Assembly (NCBI GenBank): GCA_951812585.1
Contig: OX638318.1
Location: 2,044,380 to 2,108,379, forward strand
Direction of reading: 5' to 3'
From: Rhodothermales bacterium
GTDB taxonomy: Bacteria; Bacteroidota; Rhodothermia; Rhodothermales; Bin80
Length of the DNA: 64,000 nucleotides
The notes under the pieces are model-generated. The model had not been told where the DNA came from, searched no databases, and saw only the letters and a list, made by a program, of their open reading frames with translations. This document shows positions 14,383 through 55,299 of this stretch, piece after piece (within the stretch, counting starts at the first letter, position 1; every line of letters starts with the position of its first letter). The translations under genes were made by a program, and so were the position numbers.

Positions 14383-16167
14383 TTGAGACTATCCTCTTTT
14401 TTTGGGCAGACGTTGCGCGAAGTGCCCACAGAGGCCGACACGGCCTCGTACGCGATGCTCTTGCGCGCGGGCTATGTTCGCCAACTGGCAGCGGGTCTGT
14501 TTTCGTATCTGCCTGCAGCGTGGCGTTCGCTGCGCAAGATCGAGCAGATTCTGCGTGAGGAGATGGACGCCATTGGCGGGCAGGAGATGTGCATGCCCGT
14601 CGTGCATCCCGCTGAGTTGTGGCAAGAAAGCGGGCGCTGGTACGAGATTGGCGACCCCATGGCGCGCTTCAAGGACCGACGTGGGCGCGACTTGGTACTG
14701 GCGATGACCCATGAGGAGGTGGTCGCAAGCCTTTGCAGGACGGAAATCCGGTCGTACCGGCAGCTCCCGCAGATGGTCTACCACATGCAGACGAAATTCC
14801 GCGATGAGCCGCGTGCCCGCGGCGGACTCATCCGGGTGCGGGAATTTGTCATGAAGGACTCGTACACACTGGACCTGGGCTATGAAGGCTTGCAGGCCCA
14901 GTATGAGTGCCACTATGATGCCTATTACCGCATCGGTGCACGCTGCGGATTGAAGTTGGTGGCCGTGCAGAGCGATCCTGGCATGATGGGTGGTAAGATG
15001 GCACACGAGTTCATGTATTTGAGCCCGATCGGCGAGGACTCGCTGGCCATCTGCGACGCAACCGGCTATGCCTCCAACCTGGAGATTGCCGAGTTCCGCA
15101 AGGAGCTAGACGATAACGGAGCACCGGAGCCGCTGCAGAAGGTACACACGCCCGGCGCGTCCACCATTGAGGACCTGGCCACATTCTTGGATATCTCACC
15201 GCGCCAGACCGCCAAGGTGGTGTTTTGCATGGGCAACTTCGGTACGGAAGCACCTGAAAAGCTGGTTGTCGGCGTGGTCCGGGGCGACATGGAAGTGAAC
15301 GAGACGCAGCTCACATATTTGTCGGGTGCCAGCGAGCTCAGAGCTGCGCATGAGGAGGAGATCGAGGCGGCGGGCGGGACCGCAGGCTACGCATCGCCCC
15401 GCGGCATTGATCGCTCGAGAAGCGTCATTGTGGTGGATGATCTTGTGGCCCGTACCACCAACCTGGTCGTAGGTGCCAACGAAGTGGATTACCATTTCAC
15501 CGGCGCCAACTATGGGCGGGATTATGATGCCGATGTGGTAGGCCCCATCGCGAAGGCGTATGACGGCGCTCCGGATCCTGTTGCCGGCGCCCCGCTGCGT
15601 ATTGCGCGCGGCATTGAAGTCGGCAACATCTTTCAGCTGGGCACGCGCTACAGTGCCACGCTGGGGGCTCTCTACACCGACGAAAACGGACAGGAGCACC
15701 CTATCATCATGGGTTCGTACGGCATCGGTGTTGGCCGCATGCTGGCCTGCGTGGCGCAGGAGTACAGCGACGAGTACGGGCTGGATCTGCCCGTCTCCGT
15801 AGCGCCCTGGCATGTGGTGCTGGTTTCATTGGCGCGCAAGGGTCCGACCAGAGGCCAGGCGGAGGCATTGTACCAGGCGCTCATGGAGGCAGGCGTGGAG
15901 GTGCTGTATGATGACCGGGCGGTCAGTCCCGGCGTCAAATTTGCCGACGCAGACCTTCGGGGCATGCCATTCAGGCTGACCATTTCCGAGCGGTCATTGA
16001 AACGTGGGGGTGTGGAGTTTGGGCGGCGTCGCGCCAAGGATGTAGAGATCATACCCTTGGGAGAGGCCGTCGCGCGCGTTCAGCAAGCAATCCAGGATGC
16101 ATTTGACCGGCTCGCCCAGGGGCTGGACGACCTGCCCACCTGGGCATCCGAGCAGCGCAGCGCGTAG
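14383..16167 (+). CDS. proS: Prolyl-tRNA synthetase
   Basis: ProS charges tRNA-Pro with proline. The protein is 594 residues, the long bacterial form that carries an editing (INS/YbaK-like) domain between class II motifs 2 and 3. Motif 1 surrounds the GYVRQLAAGLFSYLPAAW block (27-45). Motif 2 is near the FRDEPRARGGLIRVREFVMKD region, the editing domain spans about 220-400, and motif 3 GSYGIGVGRML is near 444-454. The anticodon-binding domain is C-terminal. I use the TTG at 14383 because MRLSSFFGQTLREVP is the family's normal N-terminus and no ATG is placed suitably; GAAGAG precedes it. Confidence 0.95.
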   Translation: MRLSSFFGQTLREVPTEADTASYAMLLRAGYVRQLAAGLFSYLPAAWRSLRKIEQILREEMDAIGGQEMCMPVVHPAELWQESGRWYEIGDPMARFKDRRGRDLVLAMTHEEVVASLCRTEIRSYRQLPQMVYHMQTKFRDEPRARGGLIRVREFVMKDSYTLDLGYEGLQAQYECHYDAYYRIGARCGLKLVAVQSDPGMMGGKMAHEFMYLSPIGEDSLAICDATGYASNLEIAEFRKELDDNGAPEPLQKVHTPGASTIEDLATFLDISPRQTAKVVFCMGNFGTEAPEKLVVGVVRGDMEVNETQLTYLSGASELRAAHEEEIEAAGGTAGYASPRGIDRSRSVIVVDDLVARTTNLVVGANEVDYHFTGANYGRDYDADVVGPIAKAYDGAPDPVAGAPLRIARGIEVGNIFQLGTRYSATLGALYTDENGQEHPIIMGSYGIGVGRMLACVAQEYSDEYGLDLPVSVAPWHVVLVSLARKGPTRGQAEALYQALMEAGVEVLYDDRAVSPGVKFADADLRGMPFRLTISERSLKRGGVEFGRRRAKDVEIIPLGEAVARVQQAIQDAFDRLAQGLDDLPTWASEQRSA

Positions 16168-16286
16168 AGACGTGATGCAGCGGCCATGCCGCCTGGGCAT
16201 GGGATGCACGTGTCGGTTGTGAAGGGCGTGTATCTTGGCACAGCGCCTTGTCTGCATCCGCGTCGTCCTGCCTGGTCCGCCGATCT

Positions 16287-18659
16287 ATGCATCACAGCCT
16301 TCTAGCCTGCTGTCCAGTCGTTCTGATCGGCTGCGCGGTGCTCCAATTCATATTGGGTGTGCCGTGGGCTGCGCAGGCGCAGCAGGCCGGCGAGCCTTTT
16401 GTTTGGACGCGGCTGCCAGATTTGCCCTTTCACTCCGAGGCAGCGGGCATCTGCACGGGTTCGGCTGGCGAGAGGCTGCTGGCAGCCCCGCGAACGGAAG
16501 CGGCGCGCGGCGACAGCGTCTGGACCCTTGGCCGCAGCGGCGCCTGGCGGCGCCTGCGCGTCGTTGACGTTGACCCACGGGGGACCACGAAGTCTGGAGC
16601 CATGCACTGCGCCTGGGGTGGCGCAATCGTGGCGCTCAACCTGCAGAATGATGTCGTGGAGCGGCGCAGGCTGCCGGGCCTTCCGCGCAAACTTGAAGCA
16701 ACGAGCGTCGCCGTGGTGGGCGGCACGCTGTACGCAATGGCCGGGTCAGACATCTTTGCATGGGAAACTGCATCGGGATGGACTCCATTGGAGCATGGCC
16801 CGCAGGGGGTGCTGGTGCCCTTGGAAGGTACGCTGTACGTCTTGGGCACACGCGCAGCCTGGGCACTCGGACCCGCACGCCAATGGAGGCGGCTGCCGGA
16901 TCCACCCACGGCCTTAGAGCCCGTGACGGCCGCAGCCCTAGGCCCTTCGCACATCGTTGCAATCGGCGCTGCAATTCGAAGCCAGCACCGCCCCATTATG
17001 GCCTATCACACGATCACAGGTACCTGGACGCCGATGAGCGCTTTGCCTACTGAGGTAGGCGTACCCGTAGCTGCGCGCGGGCGCGGCGGCCTCCTCGTCC
17101 TGGGACCAGTGTCGCAAGCCGCATACCGGGGAGTCGTCGGGCCTTCGACCAGCCGCCTGCGCGGTATAGACTTTCTGGTCCTCGGAGCATACTTCCTTGC
17201 GCTGATCGGGATGGGGCTTGCATTCTTCAGGCGCAGCGAGAGCGATACGGATTTCTTCTTGGCGCGAAGGAAAATCCCGTGGTGGGTGGCTGGCGTCAGC
17301 ATCTTCGGCACGCAGCTGAGCGCCATCACGTTCATGGCGATACCCGCTACCGCGTACCAGGCAGACTGGGTCTATATCCTCGGGCAGGCCACAATCGTGC
17401 TTCTGGCCCCCGTCATCATCTACGCGTATCTGCCGTTCTTCCGCCGCCTGCAAGTAACCACAGCGTACGAGTACCTCGAGCAGCGCTTCAATGTCGCTGT
17501 GCGCCTGGTCGGCAGTGCTTCCTTTGTGCTCCTGCAGCTTGGCCGCATGGGCATTGTGATCTTCCTTCCGGCGATCGCGCTCACGGCAGTGACGGGAATG
17601 AACATCTATATGGCGATACTCCTTATGGGACTGCTCAGTACGCTGTACACCACCCTGGGCGGCATCGAGGCGGTTATCTGGAGCGATGTTCTGCAGGTGG
17701 TGGTTCTTTTGGGCGGCGCACTGCTCAGCCTGGTACTTATTGCAATAAGCGTGGACGGCGGACTTTCCGGGATCATTTCAACCGCAAGCGGACACGGCAA
17801 GCTGCGCATTGCGAACCTGACCTGGAGCCATACGGAGGCCGCGTTGTGGGTTGTAGTCATTGGATGGACATTCAGCAACCTCATTCCCTACACAGCAGAC
17901 CAGACGGTGGTGCAGCGATACCTTACGACGCGCGACGAGCGGGCAGCCGCGCGATCCATTTGGACCAACGCCTTGCTCACTATTCCGGCATCGCTGTTGT
18001 TCTTCGGGCTTGGCACGGCACTCTTTGTTTTCTACCGGGAGAACGCAGAAAACCTGAATCCGATGCTGCCAACGGATGCGATATTCCCGCTGTACATTGT
18101 TCAGGAGTTGCCGCCGGGGATTGCCGGACTGCTGATCGCTGGAATCTTTGCGGCTTCCATGTCAAGCCTGGACTCCAGCTTGAACAGTGTTGCCGCAGCG
18201 ATCGTGACGGACTTCTATCGACGGTTTAAGCGCGGCACAACGGCCGCACGGCGCCTGCGGCTCGCCCGAATGCTGACGCTGATGCTCGGCGCCGTGGCGA
18301 CTGCCGTCGGATTGCTCATGGCCGCTTACGAGTTCGACTCGTTATGGAACGCGTTCCTGGAGATCATGGGCCTTTTGGGCGGTGCTTTGGCAGGCCTTTT
18401 CGCACTCGGGATTTTTACCCGACGCGCAAACGCGGTGGGCACCCTGATGGGTGCGGGCGTCAGCGGCATTGTCGTATGGTTTGTCAAGTCACAAACATCC
18501 GTTCATTTTTTGCTGTATGCAGCCGTCGGTGCCCTGACCTGTATTATTGTGGGCTACCTGGCCAGCGTCGCTTGGCCCCGGGGAGCACCGCCGCGGCCAG
18601 GCCTTACGCTGCATTACGCGGGTCATTGCCGCCGGAGCTCCTCCGTTGCCCGTTCGTGA
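16287..18659 (+). CDS. Sodium:solute symporter with N-terminal kelch-like propeller domain
   Basis: This 790-residue protein fuses two parts. After a signal peptide (1-32, ending QAQ), residues of about 37-285 contain repeated W-x-x-L-P segments (VWTRLPDLP, WRRLPDPP, WTPMSALP) and GGTLYAM-like strands, as in kelch/NanM-type propellers. The rest is a sodium:solute symporter with about 13 helices, starting at GIDFLVLGAYF and including FFLARRKIPWWVAG and GIFAASMSSLDSSLNSVA (the Na+-site serines). The sialidase gene begins 33 bases downstream, so sialic acid is a likely substrate. I prefer the ATG at 16287, which gives a clean signal peptide, over the TTG at 16248. The propeller would sit in the periplasm and might epimerise or bind the sugar. 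Confidence 0.88.
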   Translation: MHHSLLACCPVVLIGCAVLQFILGVPWAAQAQQAGEPFVWTRLPDLPFHSEAAGICTGSAGERLLAAPRTEAARGDSVWTLGRSGAWRRLRVVDVDPRGTTKSGAMHCAWGGAIVALNLQNDVVERRRLPGLPRKLEATSVAVVGGTLYAMAGSDIFAWETASGWTPLEHGPQGVLVPLEGTLYVLGTRAAWALGPARQWRRLPDPPTALEPVTAAALGPSHIVAIGAAIRSQHRPIMAYHTITGTWTPMSALPTEVGVPVAARGRGGLLVLGPVSQAAYRGVVGPSTSRLRGIDFLVLGAYFLALIGMGLAFFRRSESDTDFFLARRKIPWWVAGVSIFGTQLSAITFMAIPATAYQADWVYILGQATIVLLAPVIIYAYLPFFRRLQVTTAYEYLEQRFNVAVRLVGSASFVLLQLGRMGIVIFLPAIALTAVTGMNIYMAILLMGLLSTLYTTLGGIEAVIWSDVLQVVVLLGGALLSLVLIAISVDGGLSGIISTASGHGKLRIANLTWSHTEAALWVVVIGWTFSNLIPYTADQTVVQRYLTTRDERAAARSIWTNALLTIPASLLFFGLGTALFVFYRENAENLNPMLPTDAIFPLYIVQELPPGIAGLLIAGIFAASMSSLDSSLNSVAAAIVTDFYRRFKRGTTAARRLRLARMLTLMLGAVATAVGLLMAAYEFDSLWNAFLEIMGLLGGALAGLFALGIFTRRANAVGTLMGAGVSGIVVWFVKSQTSVHFLLYAAVGALTCIIVGYLASVAWPRGAPPRPGLTLHYAGHCRRSSSVARS

Positions 18660-18692
18660 CCGCTGCCTGCTGCCTTAACGCATGACTTTGCC

Positions 18693-20396
18693 ATGATTTC
18701 AAAGCCTTGCATGAGCCGCGCGGCTCTTCTGCTCCTAGCCGCCTGTATTTGTTGCATGCCGGTCAGTCGCGCCGGGTTTTCCCAAGAGCGTGCCGACTTC
18801 GTGCCCGGGCCCCGCGCGGCGGATATCGATGGCGGGTCGCCTGCGCCTGTCGTGGAAGTGGACCGCAACAGCCCCGTGTTTCTGGGCACACGGGACATCG
18901 GCACGGGAGATTTTGCTATTGGTGCCACGGTGCGCGTAATGATCCAAGGCGGCTCCGGGGCTGCGCTGAAGATGGGCGAAAGCTACTTCGGCTTTGACGG
19001 GCCTAACCGGGAAGTCTTTCTTTCTGGTGCGTTGGTGGGCCACCGTTATGTGCGGATCGCCGCCATGGACCAGCATGTGCAGGGGCCCGAATGGTTCGAC
19101 CTAGCGGTGGTGCGGGAGGGGCCCGAAATACGCTTCTTCATAGGGAGTCAGGAGGTGCATCGCACCCGCAGTCTGGCCGCTATCGGCACTCCGGGCTTCA
19201 CCTTTGCGTCCGTGGGCGGCCTTGCCCCGGTCCTGGGGGAGAATGTGATTCATATTGCGCGATTCAGCGCGACGGGCGCGCTCCAGAACGCCGGCGCTGT
19301 CCGTCCGCGCGGGTATCAGATTCCGACCATTGATCTGGCATCAGAAACGCATCGGCAGGTTATGGTGGACCGCGAACCTGGGCAGTACCTCGGGCATCCA
19401 ACGACTGTGCTTCTGGAGGATGGCAAGACCATGATAGCGGTCTATCCGAAGGGGCACGGCGCTGGGGCCATTGTGATGAAGCGAAGCGAAGATGGCGGAC
19501 GCACATGGAGCGAACGTCTCGGCGTGCCGGAAAACTGGGCGACATCGCGCGAGGTGCCGACGCTGTACCGGGTGGTGGACAAGGCCGGTGTCGAGCGACT
19601 GATCATGTTTTCCGGGCTGTATCCGATCAGGATGGCGACTTCGGAAGATGAGGGTGTCACATGGACATCGCTGGAGCCGATTGGGGACTTCGGCGGCATT
19701 GTGGCGATGTCGGATCTTGTGCGCACCAAAGGTGGCGACTACCTGGCCTTCTTTCACGACGACGGGCGCTTCATTAAGGGCGAAGACAATACGCACGGTC
19801 AGTTCTACGTCTATAGTACACGGTCGGCAGACGGGGGACTGTCGTGGTCTCATCCTGAGGTTGTGGTTAGCCACCCTACTGCACATCTGTGTGAGCCCGG
19901 CATCATCCGCTCTCCCAACGGAGACCAGCTCCTGATGCTGCTGCGTGAAAACAGCCGCCAGTACAACGCGTTCTTTTCCACGTCTGATGACGACGGTAGA
20001 ACGTGGAGTACACCCGTGGAGCTTCCTGGTGCGCTTACGGGTGATCGCCACCAGGCGGTCTACGGGCCAGATGGGCGCCTCTTCGTTTCCTTTCGTGACC
20101 GGACGCATGACTCGCCCACCTGGGGAGACTGGGTCGGCTGGGTCGGCACGTACGAGGACATCATCGAAGGCCGGGAGGGGCAGTATCGGGTGCGCCTCAT
20201 GGATAACCACAAGGCAGCCGACACGGCCTATCCGGGCGTAGAGATATTGCCGGACGGAACGATCGTAACGACAACCTACGGGCACTGGACTGAGGGTGAA
20301 GAGCCCTATATCATGAGCGTACGATTCACGCTGGAGGAACTGGATCAGAAAGCCCGTGCTGCAAAGGGCAATCAGCGGCCTGACACGCTGCGCTAA
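18693..20396 (+). CDS. Exo-alpha-sialidase-like BNR/Asp-box protein
   Basis: This secreted 567-residue protein is probably a sialidase or related glycosidase. The signal peptide covers about 1-30. An N-terminal jelly-roll-like domain (about 45-205) is followed by a six-bladed propeller with at least four Asp-box repeats: SEDGGRTW, SEDEGVTW, SADGGLSW and SDDDGRTW. Possible catalytic residues include the arginines and the Tyr/Glu near the C-terminal half, but I could not map the arginine triad with certainty. It is co-directional with the symporter gene 33 bases upstream and probably in the same transcript. Other BNR-propeller hydrolases of Planctomycetes and Bacteroidota look similar, so the exact substrate is open. 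Confidence 0.82.
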   Translation: MISKPCMSRAALLLLAACICCMPVSRAGFSQERADFVPGPRAADIDGGSPAPVVEVDRNSPVFLGTRDIGTGDFAIGATVRVMIQGGSGAALKMGESYFGFDGPNREVFLSGALVGHRYVRIAAMDQHVQGPEWFDLAVVREGPEIRFFIGSQEVHRTRSLAAIGTPGFTFASVGGLAPVLGENVIHIARFSATGALQNAGAVRPRGYQIPTIDLASETHRQVMVDREPGQYLGHPTTVLLEDGKTMIAVYPKGHGAGAIVMKRSEDGGRTWSERLGVPENWATSREVPTLYRVVDKAGVERLIMFSGLYPIRMATSEDEGVTWTSLEPIGDFGGIVAMSDLVRTKGGDYLAFFHDDGRFIKGEDNTHGQFYVYSTRSADGGLSWSHPEVVVSHPTAHLCEPGIIRSPNGDQLLMLLRENSRQYNAFFSTSDDDGRTWSTPVELPGALTGDRHQAVYGPDGRLFVSFRDRTHDSPTWGDWVGWVGTYEDIIEGREGQYRVRLMDNHKAADTAYPGVEILPDGTIVTTTYGHWTEGEEPYIMSVRFTLEELDQKARAAKGNQRPDTLR

Positions 20397-21146
20397 TCCC
20401 CGCTAAAACAACGTAGGCAGCGTTGGGGGAAACGGCCCCGAAAACAGCCGCTACACACCCCAAAATGCCCGATCTTTCGCCGCTTGCACCCGCATATCCG
20501 CCCTATGCGCCCCAAACTGCTGGCCTGCAGGGCCAATCAGGCATTTTTCGGGCAAGCACTAATTGGTGGTGACGGGGTTTTCCGGGCTTTTCGCATGGGC
20601 TTGGTCGAGCAGTAAGCTTCTGGCAGATTCACTGCTTTTCGGCATGCGCAGCTGAGCGCAGGCCTTCGTGTTGTGATAAGTGCAGAAATATCGAGTTATG
20701 GGCCCTTCACAATACTCACCCATACCTTGGGATCAGTACAAATCAGCGCACATTGTAGCTGCGTGGAACCGGATGTACACCAAAGTGTCGGATTAGCACA
20801 CAAGGGTGTTTGTAGGCATCTTCACCTAGTGCAAGCAGCACGGCACGTCCGCATTGACTCACTTTGCGTTAGGGCGGGCACTGATAAGTGCGGGTATGCG
20901 TCGCGTCAGTTCGTCGGATGGAAGAATGATCATCGACGGTAGGCGCAGAAGCCGTACAAGGACATCCGTTGTTCCTGACAGACGCCGGAGTTGCGAGATG
21001 ACCTGTGAACGGTAGAGCGCCTGACATCTTGAGCCAATGCGGGTTGCCTGCACCGGCTTAGCATGCCCCAGCACGCGGCGGAGAGATGCTGGATGTCAGG
21101 CAAACTGCTTGGGACGGGTAGACGCCGCAACTTGCGTAGACTTGTG
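20397..21146. other. 750-base stretch with no recognisable gene
   Basis: Both strands were read. Short frames exist but none resembles a known protein. A minus-strand frame at 20859-21074 has a protein-like composition (DVLVRLLRLPSMIILPSDEL), but I cannot support it. The stretch separates the sialidase from the orphan ATPase and may be old mobile-element debris. Confidence 0.35.
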
Positions 21147-22352
21147 ATGACCGTAATCGAAAAAGGATACGACCGTGGCCCGGCGAAGTACTTTCACGGG
21201 CGCAAGGGGGTGCTCTCCGCCTTCAAGGAGCGCTGTGACCATGCGCTTGCCACTGGAAGGGGCACAACTTTCCTGATACAGGGCGCGCAGGGTGCGGGCA
21301 AGACCGCACTGCTCTACAAGTGCATGGAACAAGCCGAGAACAACGGATGGACGACACTACTGACAGACTACACGGCCCTTATTGATCCGCCAGTACTACG
21401 GGAGTTGCTGGGACTGAGCAGCAAACTTAACCAGGCGCTTCAACTTGGGAGCAGAGATGTCGCGGTGCAGGACGTGAAATTAGGCCCGGCCAGCCTGAAG
21501 CTTGGTGCTCCCAGCCTAGGCGCTCATGGTTTGCAGAGGCGAATGCAGCGCGTGCTGCGGAGTGCAGCTGGCAATCACGGATTACTGCTCGTTGTTGATG
21601 AAGCGCAGCACCTTGGCAACTTGCGTGACTACCGCTATCGAGTCGAGTTGGAAAATGTGCTCACGAGTATACACAACGGCACAGTAGGCGCGCCCGTGAT
21701 CTTGCTGGTTGGTGGTCTGAGCACTACGGAAAATGCGTTTGATGCGTTTAGCATATCGCGGTTTGAAAACTCGTGCAAGGTCTATCTTCAGCGCTTAAGC
21801 CCCAAATCCGCACGGAATGTGCTGCGCGACTACCTGACCATCAGCGGACAGGTGCATGGCCAAGAGAAAGAACTCGATAGGTGGATCCGCGAAATGGACC
21901 AGCGTACACACGGCTGGCCGGCACATATTGCAGGGTGGGGCGAACTGGCTGCCGAAGTATTGCGAGATGATGGAGGGCAGCTCACCGCCGAGGCATGGGC
22001 GTCAGTGGAACAAGCCGGACGCGAGCGCGACAATAGCTACTACCAGAGTCGTACTTCGGGCACGAAGCCACGCGATGTTGATGCACTGGGGCGACTGCTT
22101 TCAAGAAAGGGACTCCACGCGGTGCTAACGGAGGAAATGGTGATCGCAAGCTTGGCGGGCAACCGTTCAGAAGAAGATGCCGATCGGGTGTTCCAGCACA
22201 TTCTGCATAAAGGCATGCTAGCCTATACCGACGACGATTTCCTGGCAGTACCGATTCCGTCCATGCACGATTGGCTGGTAGCCCGCTATCAAAGGCGGCA
22301 GAGATATTCTGAAGCTGTGCGCAGGCGGAAGGAGGAGGACCTGGAGCTTTAG
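21147..22352 (+). CDS. Orphan AAA-family ATPase (AAA_16/ORC-like P-loop)
   Basis: This 401-residue P-loop ATPase has no recognised partner. An N-terminal YFHGRKGVLSAF segment (14-25) resembles the GRExxL motif of AAA_16/STAND ATPases. Walker A is GAQGAGKT (46-53), Walker B is LLLVVDEAQ (about 146-154) and a VILLVGGL strand may be sensor 1. The C-terminal third (about 280-385) looks like a winged helix ending in AVPIPSMHDWLV. I start at the ATG at 21147 because the upstream 28 residues are not coding-like, but no clear ribosome-binding site is visible. Pieces of a second copy lie at 52.4-53.1 kb and 55.0 kb, next to transposase debris. Its function is unknown. Confidence 0.75.
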   Translation: MTVIEKGYDRGPAKYFHGRKGVLSAFKERCDHALATGRGTTFLIQGAQGAGKTALLYKCMEQAENNGWTTLLTDYTALIDPPVLRELLGLSSKLNQALQLGSRDVAVQDVKLGPASLKLGAPSLGAHGLQRRMQRVLRSAAGNHGLLLVVDEAQHLGNLRDYRYRVELENVLTSIHNGTVGAPVILLVGGLSTTENAFDAFSISRFENSCKVYLQRLSPKSARNVLRDYLTISGQVHGQEKELDRWIREMDQRTHGWPAHIAGWGELAAEVLRDDGGQLTAEAWASVEQAGRERDNSYYQSRTSGTKPRDVDALGRLLSRKGLHAVLTEEMVIASLAGNRSEEDADRVFQHILHKGMLAYTDDDFLAVPIPSMHDWLVARYQRRQRYSEAVRRRKEEDLEL

Positions 22353-22479
22353 TCTACCTCACCCCAGCCGCGTAATCAATGTCATCATGGAGGAGGGCGC
22401 CGTCACATCGGACCTGTGGTTTGGCGCGCTCGTCGGTGCGGCTACGCCCGCCATCAGCGGCGAGCGGTATTCATCCGGT

Positions 22480-22560
22480 GAAGCGGCATCTGGCTCACCT
22501 ACACCGCTGGCTCTTTGGATCCAATAGCGAGCGCTTCGTGCAGGATCTGCAATTCAAAAG
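22480..22560 (+). pseudogene. IS66-type transposase fragment
   Basis: In one plus-strand frame the segment HLAHLHRWLFGSNSERFVQD resembles the N-terminal region of IS66 TnpC transposases, which usually read like LxRxLFGxxSEKF. Nothing else of the transposase remains and the frame closes soon after. The surrounding 22353-22737 has no gene; this scrap is all I can recognise between the ATPase and thrS. Confidence 0.5.
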
Positions 22561-22737
22561 AGGCGGTCAAAGTTGCCCTTGCCTGAACGCTGCCGAAGCC
22601 GTGCATTTTGTTTTGGCGTTTTTACTTTTGCAGCAAATCCAGGGATACAGTCCGCACACCAACTTGAGGTCTCTTCTCGTCACCGTGTCCACCAGGGAGC
22701 AGTGCGTACTTGGAGGCGCAGCCCGATGCCAGCGGTC

Positions 22738-24534
22738 TCATGTCAGATCGCTTTCGCGCGTCACCATGGCTACAAAGGCCTCGACGGACATTGGCCCGCG
22801 GTCTTCTCCAGAGCGGTGCCGGACGCGTACGGTATCGCTTGTAACCTCCTTGGCACCGATGACAAGCATATAAGGCACCTTTTCCGCCTGGGCTTCACGG
22901 ATCTTGTAGCCCACCTTTTCGCTGCGCGCATCCAGGTGCGCGCGCACACCGCCTCGCAACAGCTGCTGGTGCACGCCGGCAGCGTACTCCACAAATCGCT
23001 CGGAAATCGTCAGCACACGAGCCTGTTCCGGCGCAAGCCACACAGGAAACGCCCCGCCACAGTGCTCGATCAGCACGCCGACAAAGCGCTCCAAAGAGCC
23101 GAACGGCGCCCGATGGATCATGGCGGGCCGGTGACGACGATCGTCTGCCCCCACGTAGGTGAGATCGAAGCGATCGGGCAGGTTGTAGTCCAGCTGAACC
23201 GTGCCCAGCTGCCACTCGCGCTTGAGCACATCGCGCACCATGAAGTCTACCTTGGGGCCGTAGAATGCGGCCTCGCCCAGGGCTTCATGATAGTCCAGGT
23301 CCATCTCCTGCACGGCCTCCCGAATGGCAGTTTCGGCAGCATCCCAGATGGCGGTGCTCCCCGCATACTTCTTGTGGTCCGCCGGGTCGCGCAGCGAAAG
23401 TTGCACACTGAAGTCCTCGAAGGAGAGGCTGCGTAGCACCTTGAGGGTCAGATCAATCGTGTCCTTTATCTCATCCTTGATCTGGCTGTGGCGGCAGAAG
23501 ATGTGCGCATCGTCCACGGTGAACCCCCGCACCCGCGTCAAACCGCCCAGCTCACCAGACTGCTCGTAGCGATAAACCTGCCCGAACTCGGCGAGCCGCA
23601 TCGGCAGTTCGCGGTAGCTCCGCCGACGATGGGCATAAATCTGGATGTGATGCGGACAGTTCATGGGCCTAAGCAAATACCCTTCACCATCCGCTGTCTC
23701 CATGGCCGGAAACTGACTGTCTTTGTAATAGGGATAATGACCGCTGGTCCGATACAGGTCTAGCCGCCCGATGTGCGGCGTGATGACCGGCAGGTAGTTG
23801 CGGCGCAGCTGCTCCTGTTTCAGGAAGGTCACCAGCGTGTCATGCAGCGTGGCCCCCTTGGGCAGCCAGAGCGGCAAGCCGGGCCCTACCTGGTCGCTGA
23901 AGGTGAACAGCTGGAGCTTGCGCCCCAAGACGCGATGGTCGCGCTTGCGCGCCTCCTCAAGCCTGGCCAGGTAGGCGTCCAGCTCAGTCCGGTTCTTCCA
24001 CGCCGTGCCGTAGATGCGCGTCAGCTGGGGCCGCGCAGCATCCCCGCGCCAAAACGCGCCCGCCGTGGTAAGCAGCTTGACGCCGTTGGCCTTGATATAG
24101 CCTGTATGAGGCACATGCGGGCCGCGACACAGGTCAACGAAGGAGTCATGCTGATACACCGTGATCCCGGAGGCGTCGTCCTGGCCGTTGGCCAACTCCT
24201 GTATGAGCTCAATCTTGTACGGATTATCTTTGAACAGACTGCACGCCTCATCCACCGAGACCTCACGCACGGAGAAGCGGTGCCGCTCCTTGATGATCTC
24301 TTTCATGCGCTGTTCTATCCAGGCCAGATCGTTCTCCTTGGGCGGCCGGGGCAGATCAAAGTCGTAGTAGAACCGATCTTCTATGGGCGGCCCAATGGTA
24401 GGCTTGGCACCCGGAAAGCGCTCCAGCACGGCCTGTGCCATAACGTGCGCCGCCGAGTGTCGAATCTTGTACAGGCGCGGGTCATAGCCCTCTGGAATAT
24501 GCTGCTCTGCCTGCGCGATCAGTTCTGACTGCAT
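22738..24534 (-). CDS. thrS: Threonyl-tRNA synthetase (no TGS domain)
   Basis: ThrS charges tRNA-Thr. From the ATG at 24532-24534 the protein is 598 residues. It begins almost directly with the editing domain (RHSAAHVMAQAVLE near 25-38, with the HxxxH zinc-type motif). It continues with the catalytic core, including the zinc cysteine in RPMNCPHH, the motif 2 region YRYEQSGELGGLTRVRGFT and motif 3 near MIHRAPFGSLER. The anticodon domain is C-terminal. The usual 60-residue TGS domain is absent. A longer frame to 24618 adds 28 residues that do not look like TGS and would overlap the divergent gene at 24602. Confidence 0.94.
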   Translation of the reverse strand: MQSELIAQAEQHIPEGYDPRLYKIRHSAAHVMAQAVLERFPGAKPTIGPPIEDRFYYDFDLPRPPKENDLAWIEQRMKEIIKERHRFSVREVSVDEACSLFKDNPYKIELIQELANGQDDASGITVYQHDSFVDLCRGPHVPHTGYIKANGVKLLTTAGAFWRGDAARPQLTRIYGTAWKNRTELDAYLARLEEARKRDHRVLGRKLQLFTFSDQVGPGLPLWLPKGATLHDTLVTFLKQEQLRRNYLPVITPHIGRLDLYRTSGHYPYYKDSQFPAMETADGEGYLLRPMNCPHHIQIYAHRRRSYRELPMRLAEFGQVYRYEQSGELGGLTRVRGFTVDDAHIFCRHSQIKDEIKDTIDLTLKVLRSLSFEDFSVQLSLRDPADHKKYAGSTAIWDAAETAIREAVQEMDLDYHEALGEAAFYGPKVDFMVRDVLKREWQLGTVQLDYNLPDRFDLTYVGADDRRHRPAMIHRAPFGSLERFVGVLIEHCGGAFPVWLAPEQARVLTISERFVEYAAGVHQQLLRGGVRAHLDARSEKVGYKIREAQAEKVPYMLVIGAKEVTSDTVRVRHRSGEDRGPMSVEAFVAMVTRESDLT

Positions 24535-24601
24535 AGGATCGTATACTCGCGTACAAACAGCTAAAAACGACTGCGTAGGTACAAATGTTCGTAATTGCCC
24601 C

Positions 24602-25306
24602 TTGACCGCACGGAGCATTCAGCATACGCTTGCCGCCCTCGGCGATGCCGACAAGGCAGCACATCTGCAACGGTTCTTCAAAACCGGGCCAGGCGAATAC
24701 GGCGAAGGCGACCTGTTTCGCGGCATTCGCGTACCAGTGCTGCGCAAGGTGGCCCGCGCAAACAAGGCCCTGCCCCTCGGCGAGACGCTGCAGCTGCTTC
24801 AGTCCACGCACCACGAGGACCGCTTCGTTGCGCTCTGCATTCTGGTCCACGCCTATCAGCGCGGCGATGAGGACCAGCAGCACACCGTGTACAACGCGTA
24901 CCTCGCCCATACGCGGTGGATCAGCAGCTGGGACCTTGTGGACACGAGTGCACATAAGATCGTAGGCGCGCACCTCTGGCGACGCAGCCGCGCGCCGCTC
25001 TATGCACTGGCTGCATCGGAGCTTCTTTGGGAGCGCCGCATTGCCATCGTCGCCACGCTGCACTTCATCTGGAAGGGAGACTTCGCCGATACGCTCGGGG
25101 TCGCTGAAAAGCTGCTGACGGATTCGCACGACCTTATCCACAAGGCCGTGGGCTGGATGCTGCGGGAAGTCGGCAAGCAGCAGTTTGACGTGCAGGAGGC
25201 CTTCATGCGCCAACACTATGCGGCCATGCCACGGACCATGCTTCGCTATGCTATTGAGCGCTATCCGGAGGCGTTGCGCCAGGCTTATCTGAAGGGAACG
25301 GCATAA
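24602..25306 (+). CDS. DNA alkylation repair protein (AlkD-like HEAT-repeat)
   Basis: This 234-residue protein belongs to the DNA alkylation repair family (PF08713), HEAT-repeat glycosylases that remove alkylated bases without base flipping. The helical repeats show in VPVLRKVARANKAL, EDRFVALCILVHAY and WISSWDLVDTSAHKIVG; the last includes the WD pair that contacts the lesion in AlkD. It uses a TTG start at 24602, with no ATG at a sensible place. It is divergent from thrS with only 67 bases between the starts. Confidence 0.88.
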   Translation: MTARSIQHTLAALGDADKAAHLQRFFKTGPGEYGEGDLFRGIRVPVLRKVARANKALPLGETLQLLQSTHHEDRFVALCILVHAYQRGDEDQQHTVYNAYLAHTRWISSWDLVDTSAHKIVGAHLWRRSRAPLYALAASELLWERRIAIVATLHFIWKGDFADTLGVAEKLLTDSHDLIHKAVGWMLREVGKQQFDVQEAFMRQHYAAMPRTMLRYAIERYPEALRQAYLKGTA

Positions 25307-52120: not shown

Positions 52121-52424
52121 GTCGTCCTCGCTGCTGATCGGTCGGTCCGCTAGCAGTCACGCAGGTGTGACTGTGCGGCTATCCTCGGGGCAGACCTGGC
52201 CTTTCTCCAGTGTCACTGACTCGAGCGAGGTGCGATTGGTTTTGCCAATCTGGCGCCAATCTGGCACGGCCTGCTCTTGTCGGGGCTGCTGCCTGCGCGT
52301 CACACTGCTTATGGGCGAAAGGGCTCAATTCAGCGGTGCTATGCGCTGACCCACTGACGCCGAGCATTGACAATCCCGCGTGTGTGCGCGTAGCAGGTCA
52401 GATTCCTGGGCCGACCTCCTCCCA
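52121..52424. other. Non-coding stretch before the ATPase remnant
   Basis: No gene can be supported. The stretch lies between the small membrane protein and the degraded ATPase copy and contains a tandem of GCCAATCTGG at about 52245-52265, nothing more. Confidence 0.35.
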
Positions 52425-53106
52425 TTACCGCGCGGCTTTAATCCTCTTCAGCTGCTTCTGGTAGCGGCTACCAGCCAATCGTGCATAGACGGTATCGGCA
52501 CTTCCAGGTCTCCGTCGTCGGTGTAGGCCAGCATTCCTTTATGCAGAACATGCCAGAATGCTTGCTCGGAATCTTCTTTTGAACGGTCGTTCGCCAAACA
52601 AGCGGTCACCTCCGCCTCGGGTAATGCCACATGCCGCTCATTATTCTTGAGGAGTCGGCCCAACGCGTCAAGATTGCGTGTCCTAGTGCCCCGTGCGCGG
52701 GCGTTGTAGTACTCTTTATTGCTCTCGCGGCCTGCCGCCTTCACGGACTCCCACGCTTCTGCGGTTAGCTGTCCGCCATTTCCTCGCAGTATTTCGGCTG
52801 CATCCTCGCCCCATCCCGCAATGTGTGCCGGCCAGCCATGGGTACGCCGGTCCAGTTCATGGACCCACCTATCGAGTTCTTTTTCTTGGCCATGCACCTG
52901 TCTGCTGATGGTCAGGTAGTCGCGCAGCACATTCCGTGCGGATTTGGGATTCAGGCGCTGGAGATAGACCACGCACGAGTGTTCAAATCGCGATGCCAAA
53001 CGCATCAAACGCATTTTCCAACTCGACGCGATAGCGGTAGTCACGCAAGTTGCCAAGGATCTGTGCTTCATCAATTACAAGCAGCAGTCCATGATCAATG
53101 GTGGCC
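52425..53106 (-). pseudogene. Truncated, frameshifted copy of the orphan AAA ATPase (C-terminal part)
   Basis: Read on the minus strand, this matches the 21.1 kb ATPase from Walker B to the C-terminus (LLLVIDEAQILGNLRDYRYR, VYLQRLNPKSARNVLRDYL, VPIPSMHDWLV). It has four defects. The 5' half including Walker A is missing. A 78-base in-frame deletion falls between two copies of GGAAAATG. A 2-base deletion follows at about 52990. A 1-base deletion in the last codons (about 52472), if undone, restores an end reading YQKQLKRIKAAR at a stop at 52425-52427. The minus-strand frame 52448-53074 that remains open is therefore unlikely to be a working protein. Confidence 0.85.
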
Positions 53107-53109
53107 ATC

Positions 53110-53551
53110 AGGATGGCGGTAGTGGCAAAGGTCTTCCGCAGCCTCAAGACCGTTGATCTGAAGGTGCGCCCTATCTACCACGACCGGGCCCGCCGCATCC
53201 AGTGCCCCATCTTTCTTTGTATGCTGGCCTATTACGTACAGTGGCACATGAAGACAAGCTGGCCCCATGCTGTTCGCGGAGGAGGACCTGGCGGCAGCCA
53301 AGGCGGCCCGTGCCAGCGTGGTGGCGCCGGCGGAACCCTCCCCGGAAGCACAAAGCAAGGCACGAACCAAAAAGATCAGCGACGGCGTTCGCGCCACCAG
53401 CTTCCAGTCGCTGATGAGTCACCTGACCCAACTGGGCAAGTGCAAGCTGGTAGAGAAAAACAAGCCTGAGGAGGCGGTCAGGCTGGTGCTGCAGACGCTA
53501 AGTCCCAAGCAAAAGAAGGCCTTCAGGCTGCTCGGCGTAAGCCACCAATAG
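53110..53551 (+). pseudogene. IS1634-type transposase, 3' fragment with a frameshift
   Basis: The plus strand encodes the end of a DDE transposase. AKVFRSLKTVDLKVRPIYH and FLCMLAYYVQWHM are well-known features of IS1634-like transposases just after the last catalytic residue. The frame then shifts near 53260 and continues as LAPMLFAEEDLAAAKAARASVV to the stop at 53551. Everything before the fragment (including the catalytic core) is gone; the ATPase remnant abuts it at about 53106. Confidence 0.8.
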
Positions 53552-53745
53552 GTTGGCTGACAGCGCAGCCAGCCACCGGCACTAGTCGCAAAGTCCGCAA
53601 AAAACAAACGCCTTCTCGGCCCCCTTGCCGGGTAAAGCACTAAGAAGTTCAGTCTAGGAGGCGATGATTTTTAAATGGCCAAAATTCTGTCTAGTGATTG
53701 AGATACACCTCAGAGTATGAAGCAGTCGTGAAAACCAGTCTACCG

Positions 53746-54558
53746 TCACGACGGGATCGGTGTGGACCGTACGAATGTGACCTTGCTATCCACTAGATGC
53801 ACCGGCAGATACGATTCCGCATAGAATCGCCGGACCAGTGTCCGCAGTCTTTCGGTTGCGCCCTCATCAATAGGCGAGTGAAGCTCGTCGAAGGTGATGC
53901 AAACGACCTTCGGGGTGATATGAGAATTGAACATCGCGTTGACCACTTCGTACTCGGCGCCTTCGATGTTGAGTTTGATAAAGGACACGCTCGCATTCCC
54001 CAGCGCAGCCAAAATCGCTTTTGGCGACAGGCACTCTGCTTCGAAATAGTCCACCGTGTCCTGCATGTTGAGAATTGAATGGCTTACGTGTGCCGGGTCC
54101 ACGGGTGCGTAAAAGCGTGTGGTCTTGCACGACGACCACACGCCGTAAGGATAGAAGTGAATTGCCCCCTCCTGCCCTTTGGCATCGTACTCTGAAATGG
54201 CTCTGCGGCAATAGTCTACCGCGCGGGGGGTGGGATCGTATATGTGCACAGTTACCCCCAGTTTCCTAGCGACGCCGATTTCGAAGCTGATATCCTCTCC
54301 GGCCCCGAAACTCAGCCCGATGCTTCCCCTTACCAACTCGGTTGGAACGGCGTACCCGCCATACGCGGAGCCGAAATACGCGACCCCGTGCATTTTTGCT
54401 AGCCTCCGGACTCCAATGCGCCCCAGTCGGTGGCGGTTTCGCGAGCGGCGCGCAATGTCGATCATGATTTGCGGCAAGATGCGCTTTGCCAGTGTTCTAA
54501 GATTCATTCTTGCGGGCTTCGTATTCCTGACTTCTGCGGTTAAAGTACAAAATCGCAT
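53746..54558 (-). CDS. FkbM family methyltransferase
   Basis: This 270-residue protein belongs to the FkbM SAM-dependent methyltransferases, which often methylate sugars of surface glycans or natural products. The Rossmann core includes SFGAGEDISFEIGVARKLG (glycine loop and first acidic residue), VHIYDPTP (adenosine contact) and SFIKLNIEGAEYEVV (FkbM marker, about 190-204). The ATG at 54558 has an AGG 8 bases upstream; a start at 54507 (MNLRTLAKRIL) is also possible. It is intact but stands alone between transposase fragments, and its flanks are more AT-rich than usual here, which suggests transfer. Confidence 0.87.
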   Translation of the reverse strand: MRFCTLTAEVRNTKPARMNLRTLAKRILPQIMIDIARRSRNRHRLGRIGVRRLAKMHGVAYFGSAYGGYAVPTELVRGSIGLSFGAGEDISFEIGVARKLGVTVHIYDPTPRAVDYCRRAISEYDAKGQEGAIHFYPYGVWSSCKTTRFYAPVDPAHVSHSILNMQDTVDYFEAECLSPKAILAALGNASVSFIKLNIEGAEYEVVNAMFNSHITPKVVCITFDELHSPIDEGATERLRTLVRRFYAESYLPVHLVDSKVTFVRSTPIPS

Positions 54559-54659
54559 GAGCGATACCTGATCAACATACTAATACTGAACACTACGCGT
54601 GCTGATTTTGAGGGGACCCTTGAGGCTCCTCTCGACCGCATCCGGATTCCTTGGACTTC

Positions 54660-55049
54660 TTAAAGTAGCTGGTCGGGATCGGCCAGCTCGCGGGTCCTGC
54701 TGGGGTATTTCAGTTCGGCTGCGCTGTAGAGTGTCCGCTGAGCAGCGGTGGCGGGGGAGGCGAGCAGGTACTGCTTCAGCGTACTGGTGTCGGTGATGAG
54801 GGAGACTTGCGCGCCGCTCAGCTCTGCCAGGATACGAGCCTCGCTGAGTGGCTCCTGGACCGCATCCATGGTGTTGTGCTGGTAGCGCAGCAGGCGCAGC
54901 AAGGCAAAGGCGACGAAGCAAATCGCGATGTGTGCCTAGACGCGGCTGGGGGTCCAGTGATCGATGGGCCGCGTCGCCATGGTGTGCTTGCGCCCGTGAA
55001 AGTACTTTGCAGGGCCGCGGTCCAGTCCTCCGGGTGCTCTATACATCAT
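54660..55049 (-). pseudogene. ATPase N-terminal scrap fused to an IS4/IS1634-like transposase 3' fragment
   Basis: On the minus strand the frame opens MMYRAPGG, then LDRGPAKYFHGRK, nearly identical to residues 8-20 of the 21 kb ATPase. At once it becomes HTMATRPIDHWTPSRV, an in-frame TAG stop (54940-54942), then AHIAICFVAFALLRLLRY and a tail ending DPDQLL. The second part is the C-terminal region of a DDE transposase. So the join merges the start of an ATPase gene with the end of a transposase, and the stop codon inside shows decay. Confidence 0.75.
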
Positions 55050-55299
55050 ACATCGTCAGTCTCAGCTGATTGCGAAAACCGTGCTTCCTGCACTACCCAG
55101 CCAGCACCATGTGCCCTGCAGCACTGCCATGGGGCGTGCAGAGCCGGTACAGGCATACCGTATCGGCCCATGCGCAGTCGGCAAATCTCTCATGGTGCGC
55201 CTCTGCGTTGCATGCGTCATCTACTGACACCGTGGAACTGCGGCAAAACAAGTCATACACGACCCGCCTGTTTGCAGCGGCAAAAAAGCTGCGCGTGGC

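Follow-up and report, generated by a model that had tools for sequence, protein, structure and literature searches.

A family-restricted, repeatedly duplicated ATPase of Rhodothermales resembles minimal STAND NTPases in motifs and predicted fold

NTPases of the STAND class are recognized by an hhGRx(x)E-type motif, Walker A and Walker B motifs, an arginine after the sensor strand, a GxP motif in the lid, and a winged helix, a list of hallmarks that reportedly goes back to Leipe et al. in 2004. The core is usually fused to an effector and/or repeat sensor domain, but such fusions are absent from minimal archaeal relatives and we do not take them as defining. Proteins with related cores include the stand-alone archaeal ATPases SSO1545 (2fna) and PABY2304 (2qen), the NB-ARC modules of NLRs, CED-4, and Apaf-1, bacterial nSTAND/Avs proteins, the ORC1/Cdc6 initiators, and the transposition ATPases TnsC, MuB, and IstB of IS21. 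An SSO1545-like ATPase core is also found in the mycobacterial regulator IniR, which controls one operon (PMC5760070), and "archaeal ATPase" genes have expanded in some algae, with 26 members in the lichen alga Asterochloris and 12 in Galdieria (PMC6652019).

Here, we describe an ATPase encoded in a 64,000-nucleotide stretch of a Rhodothermales genome ("the window", whose positions we use throughout). The gene (21147..22352, +) is intact and encodes a stand-alone protein of 401 aa composed of a P-loop domain, a helical lid, a winged helix, and a C-terminal extension ending in EEDLEL. A longer reading from an in-frame upstream ATG at 21063 was dropped, with homology to relatives beginning near 21147, and a promoter/terminator scan of the locus returned nothing above chance. 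The Walker motifs read from this ORF in the initial annotation are clearly present: Walker A is GAQGAGKTA (residues 46–54; 21282..21308, +; GAQGAGKTAL as the longer string) and Walker B is LLVVDEAQ (residues 147–154; 21585..21608, +). Across 73 paralogs, the residues F16, G18, and R19 of an FxGR motif upstream of Walker A, the Walker residues K52 and D151, and the sensor arginine R205 are invariant, while H17 and E152 are each kept in 72/73 and the E position of the hhGRx(x)E-type motif is variable. The lid motif W257-P258-x-H260 is likewise invariant (P258 in 73/73), with G256 in 69/73 completing the GxP signature, and the winged helix carries a "PIPSMHxWL" motif that reads SMHDW, i.e., MHD-like, in the window copy. 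Between Walker A and Walker B lies an insert (residues 94–120; 21426..21506, +) that differs in length and sequence among paralogs and is predicted with low confidence (pLDDT mostly <50 over residues 94–116 and 118–120).

An AlphaFold model built from the family alignment (pLDDT 90.7) bears out the winged-helix end that had been proposed from the sequence and places this domain C-terminal to the lid. The best full-chain structural matches of this model are SSO1545 (Z 19.2, 301 aligned residues) and PABY2304 (Z 19.1), followed by the NB-ARC cores of NLRs, CED-4, and Apaf-1 (Z 14–18) and by ORC/Cdc6, with TnsC and MuB ranking lower (Z about 13); neighbors were also ranked with Foldseek. The matches to SSO1545, PABY2304, CED-4, and Apaf-1 extend over the full length of the predicted fold. 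A structural search of viral models returned mostly generic AAA proteins, and designed PPR repeat proteins that topped a profile search of PDB chains were judged to be a helical-repeat artefact. By Pfam, only the generic AAA_16/AAA_22 profiles score above cut-off in the window copy and the 73 paralogs, with no second domain and thus no fused effector or repeat sensor domain in what amounts to 401 aa in all; in the window ATPase, this includes the absence of any nuclease, recombinase, or transposase domain. Because the hallmark motifs are near-invariant, the predicted fold matches, and no second Pfam domain is found, we file the window ATPase, by motifs and modeled fold, as a minimal member of the STAND class.

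Closest to the ATPase family in architecture are SSO1545 and PABY2304, which are likewise stand-alone, similar in size, and alike in P-loop domain, helical lid, and winged helix, with about 300 residues aligned at Z 19, but share only 13–14% sequence identity with the window ATPase. The ATPase family differs from them in being confined to one bacterial family in the genomes searched and carries a variable linker with a conserved C-terminal peptide, the comparison to the two archaeal proteins covering the parts upstream of this tail. NLR NB-ARC modules, CED-4, Apaf-1, and bacterial nSTAND/Avs proteins have a similar core fold (Z 14–18), and the window copy displays their GR before Walker A, sensor arginine, GxP lid motif, and MHD-like motif, yet its chain is without the effector or ligand-sensing repeat domain that such proteins carry. 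The AAA+ core is also common to TnsC, MuB, and IstB, of which TnsC and MuB are weakly similar in sequence and moderately similar in structure; unlike them, the ATPase family has a different C-terminal domain, no linked transposase or TniQ, and no target-site evidence. An identification as TnsC was rejected since the similarity to VchTnsC is too weak (E 0.013 with a single sequence, 0.0032 with a profile). With ORC1/Cdc6, the window ATPase shares an AAA_16-type core and a winged helix, but the ATPase paralogs evolve fast, are dispersed in dozens per genome and variable number, and show no apparent link to an origin.

Many members of the ATPase family extend beyond the winged helix. A tail of 20 or more residues is present in 48 copies, 27 of which end in R, while 32 carry E or G at position -2 and 28 a hydrophobic residue at position -3. 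These counts lie well above what the linker composition predicts, with a binomial p below 1e-10 each, values that are overstated given that the copies are related by ancestry. Copies from three genera (g1, g5, and g6) carry this hydrophobic-[E/G]-R motif, and related endings are GLEL in genome G004 and DLEL in the window copy, which resembles the motif only loosely. Many intact copies have no tail and some truncated ones encode tail-like sequence out of frame or after the stop, so not every copy depends on the tail. When a tailed paralog is modeled with AlphaFold, its final 40 residues come out unstructured and undocked. On the simplest reading, the tail is probably a variable disordered linker that ends in a docking peptide for a shared partner.

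The distribution of the ATPase family is narrow. Among 59 relatives searched, matches were found in every genome of the same bacterial family plus one marginal match elsewhere, and a profile of the 73 paralogs detected all 16 genomes of this bacterial family versus 0/98 genomes from elsewhere in the order. Of 395 genomes sampled across the phylum, only those of the bacterial family matched the profile; a scan of named genomes gave a single match (the Bacteroidetes MAG CAR3_bin_6), and no relatives were found in IMG/VR, phages, plasmids, or viral contigs. Within the bacterial family, genomes contain between 1 and 76 matches. The upper end is set by G010 (3.8 Mb, 99% complete), in which 39 of the 76 matches are near-full-length (covering about 340 or more of 379 model positions), 31 of them without internal stop, and the rest are fragments. 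Even close species differ sharply, e.g., with 1–2 matches in G007 and G009 versus 9–13 in G011 and G015. Up to about 40 near-full-length STAND-type paralogs in a 3.8-Mb genome are an unusual use of genome space, and close species with 1 to about 40 copies form a natural series. To our knowledge, this ATPase family, its restriction, and its tail are new, while the expansion of archaeal-type ATPases has a precedent in the lineage-specific algal expansions (PMC6652019), which we liken to the bacterial case by description only and in different organisms. The question of the target concerns these expanded archaeal-type ATPases just as much, and the C-terminal peptide offers a handle on the targets of minimal STAND proteins.

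The genome of the window (one contig of 3.2 Mb) contains several copies, as had been proposed: three full-length ATPases, i.e., the window copy and those at C1:239070 (80% identical) and C1:631359 (39% identical), together with a fragment at C1:2887992 and one broken copy inside the window. The latter confirms the parts of a second copy seen about 31 kb away next to transposase debris. Its 5' part (54986..55143, -) comprises the upstream region and first codons and is 83% identical by blastn to the copy at C1:239070 (L036), while a middle-to-C-terminal part (52396..53095, -) matches L036 at 82% and the window copy at 71% on the protein level (blastn/tblastn). Between them lies an insertion of about 1.9 kb (53096..54985) with transposase-like remnants and an ORF for an FkbM methyltransferase (53746–54558, -). 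By contrast, the IS66 scrap reported beside the intact copy finds no profile support: the ORF at 22379–22873 has no Pfam match and no hit to the IS66 leucine-zipper profile, so that visual resemblance alone (KRHLAHLHRWLFGSNSERF) speaks for IS66, and the DNA at 22350–22760 is not repeated elsewhere in the genome.

The intact copy belongs to a block (16248..22352, +) with a kelch/sodium-solute symporter fusion and a BNR sialidase, identified by Pfam and by site comparison with relatives, that takes up about 6.5 kb between proS (14383–16167, +) and thrS (22738–24618, -). The corresponding gap measures merely 73–128 bp in G005, G003, G010, and G015 and about 1 kb in G006; these five relatives constitute the comparison, with the same-genus genome G001 left out because its contig ends just past thrS. 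Judged by this synteny, the window copy sits off any ancestral site, since proS and thrS of the relatives are near-adjacent and without symporter fusion, sialidase, or ATPase. The symporter fusion and sialidase (16248–20396), absent from this site in all five relatives, are probably an acquired module for sialic-acid use. Rhodothermia have been discussed together with sponge sialic-acid degradation (PMC8163846), and the sialidase beside the window copy would fit a sponge-associated member of this group.

The ATPase family expands separately in each lineage. Of 97 copies placed in a tree, 56 have their nearest neighbor in the same genome compared to 7.7 expected from label shuffles, and tandem repeats of the ATPase gene plus flank are found in several genomes (L039, L061, L076, L086, and L089). 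At L076:6615-10883, three ATPases follow one another in tandem, each repeat being about 1.56 kb long, and the tail motif is encoded out of frame after each of them. Identity within paralog pairs can shift sharply along the gene, e.g., at L039 with an almost identical N-terminal region and a diverged C-terminal part, which suggests gene conversion between paralogs. Intact copies are under purifying selection as seen from dN/dS values of 0.18–0.56 over 15 close paralog pairs, while many other copies are broken. As far as sequences can tell, the turnover of the ATPase family is one of birth-and-death, with lineage-wise expansion, purifying selection, and fragments left behind. A single-copy vertical gene with a fixed neighborhood, named in the initial annotation as the finding that would speak against its proposal, is clearly not what we see, given 1–76 matches per genome, unconserved neighbors, and the absence of the window block from relatives.

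Comparisons of orthologous sites illustrate how copies change place. A near-clean empty site in G009 relative to G011 reveals a 3.7-kb block (L083:7489-11164) with a short diverged duplication at its flanks, which contains one ATPase and a remnant in which a type III restriction-type endonuclease domain is recognizable; the block is missing in G009 and G006, and its ATPase part is also present in G015, where contigs are broken. At a second site, an 8.2-kb island is absent from G015, and one intergenic site is occupied by an ATPase in G011 (L070:7010-8734) and by unrelated genes in G009 (L133:5183-6431), suggesting an insertion hot spot. Together with the tandem repeats, these block, island, and occupied-site comparisons indicate that copies spread as parts of variable islands and by local duplication. 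The suggestion of a mobile or repeatedly acquired ATPase thus holds with regard to variable copy number and a window copy in a block absent from the site in relatives. A self-moving element is improbable, considering tandem duplications, genome-wise clustering in the tree, absence from plasmids, phages, and viral contigs, and the lack of terminal repeats or a clean unit, with no terminal or flanking repeats found around the window copy.

As had also been noticed, the window ATPase has no partner gene, and as far as neighboring genes go, this extends to the whole ATPase family. When the ORFs lying up to 8 kb from about 80 copies were compared all against all, no conserved partner emerged but only shadow frames of the ATPase, general transposases, and proteins of group II introns. 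Genes were also called around 109 members of the ATPase family, giving 259 neighbor genes that fall into 218 clusters, and neither these immediate neighbors nor the 8-kb surroundings include a recurrent TnsB or TniQ. According to Pfam, 115 distinct neighbors are mostly housekeeping genes and singletons. With median intergenic distances of 606 bp on the upstream and 454 bp on the downstream side, the ATPase copies are mostly monocistronic.

We give about an even chance to the reading that the window ATPase belongs to a set of minimal STAND-type NTPases which is restricted to one bacterial family, has been duplicated repeatedly, and whose members act as a switch on an unlinked partner. Taken separately, it is rather likely that the copies work as an ADP/ATP switch, while a role in conflict or defense is a more tentative proposal. 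The GxP-type lid motif and the winged helix would keep the protein closed until a trigger, possibly sensed by the variable insert that separates the two Walker motifs, favors ATP binding and oligomerization. Once activated, the ATPase would act on a partner from another locus, and many copies may contact this partner through the docking peptide (hydrophobic-[E/G]-R-COOH) at the C-terminal end of the flexible linker. Copies would arise by tandem and dispersed duplication, move with variable islands, be kept by purifying selection, and eventually decay. By analogy, such birth-and-death turnover resembles that of gene families involved in conflict or in the recognition of changing targets, which would make these the likeliest selective setting. 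It is a long shot that a genome deploys dozens of minimal STAND switches that have diversified to read different triggers and converge via the shared C-terminal peptide on one unlinked hub effector. If true, this would be a single-gene recognition system and a bacterial counterpart of helper-dependent NLR networks.

Purifying selection on the copies would also suit a set of paralogous regulators (IniR/MalT-like STAND proteins) that respond to signals, control host genes, and have expanded for environmental or host sensing and not for conflict, for which IniR with its SSO1545-like core (PMC5760070) and expansions such as the 26 "archaeal ATPases" of a lichen alga (PMC6652019) are precedents. 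However, the window protein, unlike IniR, has no sensor-repeat or separate DNA-binding domain, and we see no co-oriented target operon or conserved neighbor; we consider such regulators a serious, though less likely, alternative. DNA binding by the winged helix is conceivable and would favor a role more like that of ORC or TnsC. Transposase remnants near some copies, the location of copies in variable islands, and the weak VchTnsC sequence similarity (E 0.013; profile 0.0032) alongside the structural match to TnsC/MuB (Z about 13) would agree with a domesticated or parasitic TnsC/MuB-like targeting ATPase that helps an unlinked transposition machinery pick sites or spreads with it as a passenger. 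This is improbable, because the archaeal STAND-like match is clearly better (Z 19) and takes in the winged helix, no transposase or TniQ is a conserved neighbor, no terminal repeats flank the window copy, and the copies expand lineage-wise with tandem duplications.

An unassisted single-gene selfish element with the ATPase gene and its upstream region as the mobile unit is very improbable. The copies in G012 and G014 do share a block that reaches from about 95 bp before the conserved start to shortly past the stop, and copy numbers differ strongly between close species (1–2 in G007 and G009, 9–13 in G011 and G015). Yet no terminal inverted repeats surround the window copy, the near-clean empty site has only a short diverged repeat instead of a clear target-site duplication, the observed insertions are larger than the gene (the 3.7-kb block with another gene and the 8.2-kb island), and the protein is without nuclease, recombinase, or transposase domain. 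The about 95 bp conserved upstream of dispersed G012/G014 paralogs (L063:7893-8076 and similar) read GGAACAAA...AATCATT... and look promoter-like.

With regard to defense, comparison with known anti-phage ATPases gave BrxD as the best candidate, which was rejected at 18.9 bits versus an NCBIfam cut-off of 350 (17.1 bits with PADLOC). The 115 distinct neighbors of the ATPase copies match 132 PADLOC families, while 107 control genes drawn from the same regions match 32. These matches come from few genes, with two to three per family at most and single proteins matching 6 and 15 families, and an association of the ATPase copies with defense islands is therefore only suggestive. Neighbors of two copies (L063:13680-15002 and L080:5230-6810) strongly match the candidate defense families PDC-S01 and PDC-M47A/PD-T4-4_A.
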